In this document: one piece after another, positions 44,801-51,611 of the stretch
Layout of the letters: each line of letters begins with the position of its first letter
How positions within the stretch are numbered: position 1 is the first letter of the stretch
Assembly: GCA_005884685.1 (NCBI GenBank)
Contig: VBAH01000017.1
Span: 62,001-126,000 of the forward strand
From: Alphaproteobacteria bacterium
Lineage (GTDB): Bacteria; Pseudomonadota; Alphaproteobacteria; Rhizobiales; Xanthobacteraceae
DNA: 64,000 nucleotides
Direction: 5' to 3'
Program-made: the position numbers and the translations under genes
The notes under the pieces: generated by a model
What the model was told of the DNA's origin: nothing
The model's database searches: none
What the model saw: only the letters and a program-made list of their open reading frames with translations

Positions 44801-46390
44801 TCAGCCGACCTCGGTCGAATGGATTCGCCGCTGTCCGACCACCAGCGTCTCGCCGTTGCCCCGGTGGCGCTTGATCAGGAGCTTGTTGAGCGCACCGAGA
44901 TAAGCCTTCGCGGAAGCGACGAGCGTGTCGGGATCGGAGCCCTTGGAGGTGACCGCCCGACCGTTCTCCGAAAGGCGCACCGAAACCTCCGCCTGTGCGT
45001 CCGTCCCCGCGGTGACGGCGTGCACCTGATAGAGCTCGAGCACGGCATCGTGCGGAACCATTGCCTTGACGCAATTAAACACCGCGTCGACCGGGCCGTT
45101 GCCCTCGCATTCCTCGATCATCTGCTTGCCGTCGATGTCGAGTTTCATGGTCGCACGCTGCGGCCCGCGCGTGCCCGCGATCACCGAGAGCGAGACCAGT
45201 TTGATCCGGTCCTGCGCATGCGCGATCTCCTCATCGACCAGCGCTTCGATGTCCTCGTCGTAGATATGCTTCTTGCGGTCGGCGAGCGCCTTGAAGCGCA
45301 CGAAGGCGTCCTCGAGCTGGTTGCTCTGCAAATGGTAGCCCATCTCTTCGAGCTTGTGCACGAAGGCGTGGCGCCCGGAGTGCTTGCCCATCACCAGCGA
45401 GGTCTGCTTCACGCCAACGGTCTCGGGCGTCATGATCTCGTAGGTTTGCGCATTCTTCAGCATGCCGTCCTGATGGATGCCGCTTTCGTGCGCGAACGCG
45501 TTGCGCCCGACGATCGCCTTGTTGTACTGCACCGGGAACGAAGTCGCCGCCGCGACCAGCTTCGAGGCGCGCGTCAGCATCGTGGCATCGACGCCGGTCC
45601 AGAACGGCAGCACGTCGTTGCGCACCTTCATCGCCATGACGACCTCTTCGAGCGCCGCATTGCCCGCGCGCTCGCCGATGCCGTTGATGGTGCATTCGAT
45701 CTGGCGGCAGCCTGCCTTCACGCCGGCGAGCGAATTGGCAACTGCCATGCCGAGATCGTTATGGCAATGCACCGAGAAGCGCGCTTTGTCGGAGTTGGGC
45801 ACATTCTCGCGCACGCGCTTGAACATGTCGAAATATTCCTCCGGCACGGTGTAGCCGACGGTATCCGGGATGTTGATCGTCGTCGCGCCGGCCTTGATCG
45901 CGGCTTCGATACAGCGGCAGAGGAAGTCGAACTCGGTGCGCGTGCCGTCTTCGGCGCTCCATTCGACATCGTCGACATGATTGCGCGCACGGGTGACCTG
46001 CGCGATCACCATGTCGAGCACCTCGTGCGGCTCCTTCTGCAGCTTCCACTTCATGTGTACCGGCGAAGTGGAGAGGAAGGTGTGGATGCGCTTGCGCTCG
46101 GCCGGCTTGATCGCCTCGGCGCAGCGATCGATATCGTTGAACGCTGCGCGCGAGAGGCCGCACACGACCGCGTTCCTGGTGCGCTTGGCGATTTCATGGA
46201 CGGCGGCGAAGTCGCCCTCTGAGGCGATCGGGAAACCGGCCTCGATGATGTCGACGCCCATCTGGTCGAGCAGCTCGGCAACTTCGAGCTTCTCCTCGTG
46301 CGTCATCGTGGCGCCGGGACATTGCTCGCCGTCGCGCAAGGTCGTGTCGAAGATGACGACGCGATCCTTCTCGGATTGGCTGGTGGTCAT
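44801..46390 (-). CDS. leuA: 2-isopropylmalate synthase
   Basis: 529 aa. Condenses acetyl-CoA and 2-oxoisovalerate in the first committed step of leucine synthesis. FDTTLRDGEQCPGATM gives the catalytic Arg-Asp, HCHNDLGMAVANSLAGVKAG the metal His pair. The C-terminal ~140 residues form the leucine-binding regulatory domain, so feedback inhibition is expected. Transcription is probably controlled by the leucine leader peptide and attenuator just upstream. Confidence 0.97.
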   Translation of the reverse strand: MTTSQSEKDRVVIFDTTLRDGEQCPGATMTHEEKLEVAELLDQMGVDIIEAGFPIASEGDFAAVHEIAKRTRNAVVCGLSRAAFNDIDRCAEAIKPAERKRIHTFLSTSPVHMKWKLQKEPHEVLDMVIAQVTRARNHVDDVEWSAEDGTRTEFDFLCRCIEAAIKAGATTINIPDTVGYTVPEEYFDMFKRVRENVPNSDKARFSVHCHNDLGMAVANSLAGVKAGCRQIECTINGIGERAGNAALEEVVMAMKVRNDVLPFWTGVDATMLTRASKLVAAATSFPVQYNKAIVGRNAFAHESGIHQDGMLKNAQTYEIMTPETVGVKQTSLVMGKHSGRHAFVHKLEEMGYHLQSNQLEDAFVRFKALADRKKHIYDEDIEALVDEEIAHAQDRIKLVSLSVIAGTRGPQRATMKLDIDGKQMIEECEGNGPVDAVFNCVKAMVPHDAVLELYQVHAVTAGTDAQAEVSVRLSENGRAVTSKGSDPDTLVASAKAYLGALNKLLIKRHRGNGETLVVGQRRIHSTEVG

Positions 46391-46439
46391 GCACTTGATC
46401 CTTCTAGGCTGCGCTCTCTAGCGCTTGATCTGAACGAAT

Positions 46440-46542
46440 GCGCCCTCACGGGCGCCCGGGGTTTCGAAGAACCCCTGAGTGCCCAGGCGCATGCGCCCAA
46501 CCGGCCCTCAGGGGCTGATAAGAAGGAGGTTCAGAATGAGGG
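46440..46542 (-). promoter_or_regulatory. Leucine attenuator (mutually exclusive hairpins) before leuA
   Basis: In transcription order the segments are CCCTCA (46542-46537), CTGAGGG region (46514-46505), CTCAGGGG (46479-46472) and AACCCC region. Possible stems: 1:2 = 46537-46542 with 46505-46510; 2:3 = 46507-46514 with 46472-46479 (8 bp perfect); 3:4 = 46470-46475 with 46458-46463. Stem 2:3 excludes both others. A last GCGCCC/GGGCGC hairpin (46440-46445, 46450-46455) follows. The Leu codons of the leader peptide lie over segment 1. No strong U-run follows, so the terminator step is not fully clear. Confidence 0.75.
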
Positions 46543-46606
46543 CAGCAGCCGGCCGGCCCTGACCGGCCCCCGGAGCGATCGCGCGGTCATCGCGGCGGAT
46601 CGACAT
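46508..46606 (-). CDS. leuA leader peptide (32 aa)
   Basis: Begins MSIRRDDRAIAPGAG and ends ALILNLLLISP. It has five Leu and two Ile codons in the last ten positions (CTC ATT CTG AAC CTC CTT CTT ATC). GAGGG lies about 6 nt before the ATG. The stop codon falls within the attenuator stem that pairs either back to the Leu codons or forward, so ribosome stalling at Leu codons would switch the fold. Situated 117 bp upstream of leuA on the same strand. Confidence 0.82.
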   Translation of the reverse strand: MSIRRDDRAIAPGAGQGRPAAALILNLLLISP

Positions 46607-46749
46607 TTCTGCCCTCGTCGTCGGGTTCCCAAGGTCGCGGAGAATGGTGAACGGAACGTTAACCGCGGGAAGCCGATGCCCGGGTTTCTAACGGATGTGC
46701 GGGGTGCGGTGCAAGAGAAGGATTAGGTCAGCGAGGTTGTCCGAACTGC

Positions 46750-51535: not shown

Positions 51536-51611
<76 letters not shown>

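Follow-up and report, generated by a model that had tools for sequence, protein, structure and literature searches.

A Leucine-Rich Leader Upstream of leuA in α-Proteobacteria, Probably Working by Translational Attenuation

Ahead of leuA in the window, by which we mean the whole stretch of 64,000 nucleotides analyzed here, lies a short leader that has a conserved anatomy, three nested hairpins (P1, P2, and P3) whose pairs covary, and leucine codons that have co-evolved with the Shine-Dalgarno (SD) region of leuA. From these features we consider it likely that the leader is a cis-acting, leucine-responsive element working by translational attenuation. Control of leuA by a leucine leader is strongly supported by the sequence comparisons presented below, and leucine supply probably acts upon the translation of the gene.

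The Leader and Its Transcript

The leader, the gene that it presumably controls and the predicted promoter are arranged as follows:

46508-46606, minus strand: leader ORF of 32 codons, with ATG start and TGA stop, product MSIRRDDRAIAPGAGQGRPAAALILNLLLISP and then stop; leaders with the same tail stand before leuA in nearly all loci examined
46520-46528, minus strand: last Leu codons of the leader, CTC CTT CTT; the final codon is CTT in 142 of 142 relatives
44801-46390, minus strand: leuA, 2-isopropylmalate synthase, the presumed controlled gene; NCBIfam NF002087, 878 bits, and TIGR00973, 699 bits
46709-46714, minus strand: predicted promoter -35, TTGCAC, 17 nt from the -10; CTTGC-N17-TAGAA pattern in relatives
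46686-46691, minus strand: predicted promoter -10, TTAGAA, with the inferred transcription start near 46680; same pattern in relatives

An earlier, sequence-only reading of this DNA had proposed an ORF of 32 codons with a cluster of Leu and Ile codons in front of leuA. Such an ORF is indeed present at 46606-46508 on the minus strand, its stop codon lying 117 nt before the leuA ATG, and the identity given to the downstream gene is borne out by the NF002087 and TIGR00973 scores. Across the leuA loci that we sampled, which come from named genomes and from members of the host's taxonomic family, nearly all leader tails are built alike: Leu codons in a run are followed by two residues and then, with few exceptions, by Pro-stop. 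The spacing from this stop to the start of leuA is about 100-150 nt. Across the class, leaders keep their frame, a run that still encodes Leu, and a fixed distance from run to stop, and codon changes within the run are mostly to other Leu codons. Since the final Leu codon is always CTT, a codon making up 3.7% of the Leu codons within leuA genes, the choice of codon looks constrained as RNA. In relatives the Leu run, the stop distance, and the stem are all kept, far beyond what chance would give.

The promoter-like motif CTTGC-N17-TAGAA recurs in 28 of 70 family members, some 85-130 nt ahead of the start of the leader, against 0.15 expected from shuffles. Because this conserved motif precedes the leader, the leader and leuA very probably share one predicted transcript; a transcription start downstream of 46500, which the sequence-only reading had named as fatal to its proposal, is unlikely for the same reason. 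Upstream of the leader and on the same strand there is a gene for a PPK2-type polyphosphate kinase (TIGR03709; 46750-47652, minus strand).

Covariation of the Nested Hairpins

The structured part of the leader consists of P1, which encloses P2 and P3, and of a stem that competes with P1:

46507-46514, minus strand: P1 5' strand CCCCUGAG, holding the leader stop codon; covarying pairs
46472-46479, minus strand: P1 3' strand CUCAGGGG, forming 8 bp with the 5' strand; covarying pairs
Within 46481-46505, minus strand: P2, GCC 46505-46503 with GGC 46483-46481; covarying pairs
Within 46481-46505, minus strand: P3, GGGC 46498-46495 with GCCU 46488-46485; double changes at all four pairs
46458-46475, minus strand: alternative stem, GGGGUU 46475-46470 with AACCCC 46463-46458, which excludes P1; present in the minimum-energy fold

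The 15 consensus pairs of an alignment of 72 sequences from the host's family are those of P1, P2, and P3 together. In this alignment 95.8% of the cells are paired and 57 cells carry double changes, compared with 11.5 in shuffles that ignore relatedness (the comparison is not a probability), and the signal is gone once the partner strand is slid along the alignment. The stop codon itself covaries with its partner in P1, UGA being found with UCA, UAG with CUA or UUA, and UAA with UUA; at another position, locus L083 has CCUC in place of CCCC and GAGG on the opposite strand. In three loci (L122, L135, and L143) the leader stop is now UGG and the ORF is longer by a few codons, with P1 still kept. 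Taken alone, the segment 46440-46545 folds with a z of -2.5, and the longer segment 46380-46630 with an unremarkable z of -0.76. The stems listed by the sequence-only reading all exist, including 46507-46514 with 46472-46479 (CCCCUGAG/CUCAGGGG) and 46470-46475 with 46458-46463 (GGGGUU/AACCCC), but that account of the structure overlooked P2 and P3 inside the first hairpin and did not notice that the leuA SD is complementary to the Leu codons.

Distribution among α-Proteobacteria

A covariance model, R1, was built from the 72 relatives, among which is the window sequence itself, and its match in the window is the following:

46468-46537, minus strand: whole R1 match; 73.2 bits, E 2e-16, the sole strong match in the genome

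R1 finds matches in 169 of 199 genomes of the order, in 118 of 387 genomes of the class, and in 88 of 397 genomes of the phylum, all 88 lying within the host's class. There is almost always one match per genome, and leuA follows directly downstream in 29 of the 29 class loci checked. The listed matches include none from one taxonomic family, f3, which is probably the Rhizobiaceae because the leuA of S. meliloti is of the TIGR00970-like type; such a family without a match, carrying the other type of leuA, may be why model rhizobia never revealed the element. The S. meliloti gene (L240:169-294) has a possible leader of its own, which ends in SLLLLGLIRGCRVR and then stop, like the actinobacterial leaders. 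Eight other loci (L061, L064, L065, L070, L072, L075, L078, and L079) are without the element in the form described here. The last four, from Hyphomonas, Henriciella, and Caulobacter, have Leu-rich small ORFs upstream of leuA, for example MRKVLPLLSLLTGPWPGTDARV, and no CCCCUGA/UCAGGGG hairpin, possibly reflecting another leader design.

No family of Rfam matches the leader element. The best candidate in the region is sX7, a Xanthomonas sRNA with a weak full-length similarity to 46437-46521 on the minus strand that falls below its cut-off (19.3 bits against 55, E 0.11) and is probably due to chance; the only above-threshold Rfam match in the window is a tRNA gene at 51536-51608 on the plus strand. 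If our reading is true, then a common control of leucine synthesis would be shared by Bradyrhizobium, Afipia, Microvirga, Methylobacterium, Bosea, and others, thereby spanning a large part of the α-proteobacteria and yet being absent from the libraries of RNA families.

Leucine Codons Pair with the leuA Shine-Dalgarno

The two sides of the stem that forms the base of the structure lie in the leader and in front of leuA:

46521-46527, minus strand: UCCUUCU, part of the Leu codons, anti-SD strand and 5' side of the base stem; pairs with AGAAGGA in the minimum-energy fold
46399-46405, minus strand: SD region of leuA, AGAAGGA, 3' side of the base stem; 7 bp with UCCUUCU

Because CTC and CTT codons resemble an anti-SD sequence anyway, each leader was compared for its fit to its own SD and to the SD of other lineages. 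Over 121 sequences less than 70% identical, the energy of leader with own SD is -9.49 kcal/mol versus -8.11 kcal/mol after permutation (z -7.6), the z being -4.6 inside the host's family and -6.8 outside it; an earlier version of the test had also given -6.8. Eight controls, drawn from neighboring windows, the upstream leader, P2/P3, and the reversed leader, range from z -2.1 to +0.8. A second sample that was not deduplicated gave z -3.3 with one control at -3.9, near-identical sequences being the probable cause, and since this control is as strong as the signal our conclusion rests on the deduplicated test. Matching changes in leader and SD can be seen in Methylobacterium (CUUACCC/GGGUAAG), in a Methylocystis-like lineage (CCUGCUG/CAGCAGG), and in Kaistia (GGUCUUCUUC with AAGGAAGACC), while locus L206 has a CGA codon for Arg in the Leu run and GUCGAAGGA at the SD; in some relatives the pairing is weak.

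This weak pairing weighs against our reading, and so do the values for the window, where the base stem has only 7 bp and gains no more than 1.9 kcal/mol over the best fold in which the SD stays open, a fold containing P1 lies 4 kcal/mol above the alternative one with GGGGUU/AACCCC, and the SD pairs with the leader at a probability of 0.38. In favor of the reading, when the leader is masked in fold prediction, as it would be by a stalled ribosome, the mean accessibility of the SD rises from 0.33 to 0.54, with an increase in 113 of 134 sequences; the predicted value for the window goes from 0.50, with the leader free, to 0.78. That the conserved partner of the leader is the SD of leuA points to translational control, which the sequence-only reading had allowed for as the alternative to termination.

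How would such a leader work? From the above arrangement we infer that ribosomes stall in the leader, which way leuA responds, and that control is exerted on translation. The transcript would begin upstream of the leader and carry both leader and leuA, with the Leu codons CUC CUU CUU doubling as an anti-SD sequence, and either P1, which lies over the leader stop, or the alternative hairpin would compact the intervening RNA in such a way that the anti-SD meets the leuA SD. With plentiful leucyl-tRNA, ribosomes would clear the leader, the Leu codons would bind the SD and leuA would be translated poorly; with leucyl-tRNA in short supply, a ribosome would wait on the Leu codons and cover the anti-SD, leaving the SD of leuA free.

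Termination and Other Explanations

The sequence-only reading had considered leuA to be under a leucine attenuator of the classic terminator layout. Its leucine leader is upheld by conservation, but the layout is not, given the lack of a U-run and an enrichment of the alternative stem only within the family. A further hairpin of the linker bears on this question:

46440-46455, minus strand: linker hairpin GCGCCC/GGGCGC, with no U-run after it; GCGCC and GGCGC in 54 of 72 family linkers

In a classical transcription attenuator, P1 would be the antiterminator and either GGGGUU/AACCCC or the GCGCCC hairpin the terminator, be it a weak intrinsic one or one assisted by Rho. We regard this explanation as unlikely, even if the stems are mutually exclusive and overlap the leader stop, and even if an AACCC or ACCCC partner is enriched in the linkers of the family (48 of 72 versus 24% expected). 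Outside the family the partner is present in 8 of 45 linkers, with 15% expected, and the energy of the alternative stem is no better than that of shuffles; GGGGUU/AACCCC was consequently rejected as a conserved switch. The pair GCGCC and GGCGC would be expected in 10% of the family linkers and shows no enrichment outside the family. A scan for terminator-like sites found none and no U-run follows the final hairpin in the window, in agreement with the sequence-only reading, which had noted that a strong U-run was missing; among the relatives, five T in eight bases occur in 10 of 72 family linkers and in 12 of 45 others. With no U-run in the window and U-rich stretches uncommon in relatives, an intrinsic terminator was rejected as well; a contribution from Rho may nevertheless exist. 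Moreover, transcription attenuation leaves the co-evolution of Leu codons and SD unexplained, which translational attenuation would account for.

Alternatively, a regulatory protein or some other trans-acting factor could recognize the structured leader, whose leucine codons would then matter only as RNA. The hairpin is strongly conserved, also in sequence, and the authors describing the actinobacterial LEU element favored a protein, since mutations of leucine codons did not fit attenuation (PMC1262725); yet frame, Leu identity, and stop distance are retained class-wide and changed codons mostly stay Leu, which makes this explanation quite improbable for our element. It is more improbable still that the leader mainly couples translation, with ribosomes opening leuA, feeding it or reading on to it without any sensing of leucine: although leader and gene are on one predicted transcript, about 100-150 nt from stop to start exceeds what ordinary reinitiation would bridge, and a Leu-specific run before a leucine gene would then have no explanation. 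Chance, in the form of a random small ORF with GC-rich stems, could appeal to the ordinary z of the long fold and to the inherent SD-like complement of CTCCTT, but is refuted by conservation, covariation, and a lineage-specific fit of leader to SD that exceeds the anti-SD baseline.

Comparison with Known Leader Elements

We found no description of a leuA leader of α-proteobacteria in the open-access literature, while subscription papers, which are outside our scope, may hold one. Within that literature, the element resembles a device previously described only for Actinobacteria, the LEU element upstream of leuA (Seliverstov et al. 2005), which has a leader with a Leu run, a base stem of Leu codons with the SD, a folded middle, and an alternative hairpin, shows no obvious terminator and is defined by a pseudoknot (PMC1262725). 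Mutations in the leuA leader of S. coelicolor had effects inconsistent with classical attenuation (reported in PMC1262725), which weighs against our reading. LeuL1 of S. lividans, MRFGLLLLSCRGEGL, is also without a typical terminator (PMC8079986).

The α-proteobacterial element follows the same plan and may be called LEU-like, with homology and convergence both possible on the evidence of the sequences. Each has a Leu-run leader before leuA and a base stem between Leu codons and SD, neither has an obvious terminator, the leader end GLLLLSC is found in S. lividans (PMC8079986) as in many α-proteobacterial loci, and CTTCTTAGCTGCC is shared. Conversely, the two belong to different phyla and to different subfamilies of leuA, the α-proteobacterial one being of TIGR00973 type; the stop codon lies in the loop in Actinobacteria and inside P1 in our element, the middle of which is the nested P1-P2-P3. 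The defining pseudoknot is hinted at here: for the 5' half of the P1 loop paired with the linker, z is -4.8 over all sequences, -3.2 for those outside the family and -1.1 for those within it, at no consistent position.

In eight actinobacterial loci, taken from plasmid-collection records of which several are chromosome-sized, a GC-rich P1 comes after the Leu run and carries the stop codon in its loop; two of these loci contain CUUCUUAGCUGCC. R1 matches two of the eight weakly (E 1.6e-4 and 4.2e-4), largely via the stretch of Leu codons, and convergence is possible. A tentative and rather doubtful proposal is that the α-proteobacterial and actinobacterial elements represent one ancestral RNA, either ancient or horizontally moved, which came to lie on two leuA subfamilies while keeping CUUCUUAGCUGCC and the stem of Leu codons with the SD. 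If this were true, the ancestral form would be a translational attenuator whose sensor codons are the very bases that block the SD. The many natural variants of the α-proteobacterial element could be used to probe whether a Leu-stalled ribosome opens the SD, a question that stands for the actinobacterial LEU element too.

The enterobacterial attenuators of leucine and branched-chain synthesis (leuL and ilvL type) likewise combine a leader containing regulatory codons with mutually exclusive stems, whereas the α-proteobacterial element has no U-run terminator and its leader has the leuA SD as conserved partner. In translational attenuators of the ermC type, which control antibiotic-resistance genes, a ribosome held in the leader ORF frees a sequestered SD. 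A ribosome held in the leader would do the same in the α-proteobacterial element; in contrast to the ermC type, however, the strand that sequesters the SD would consist of the regulatory codons, and uncharged leucyl-tRNA, not a drug, would serve as the signal.
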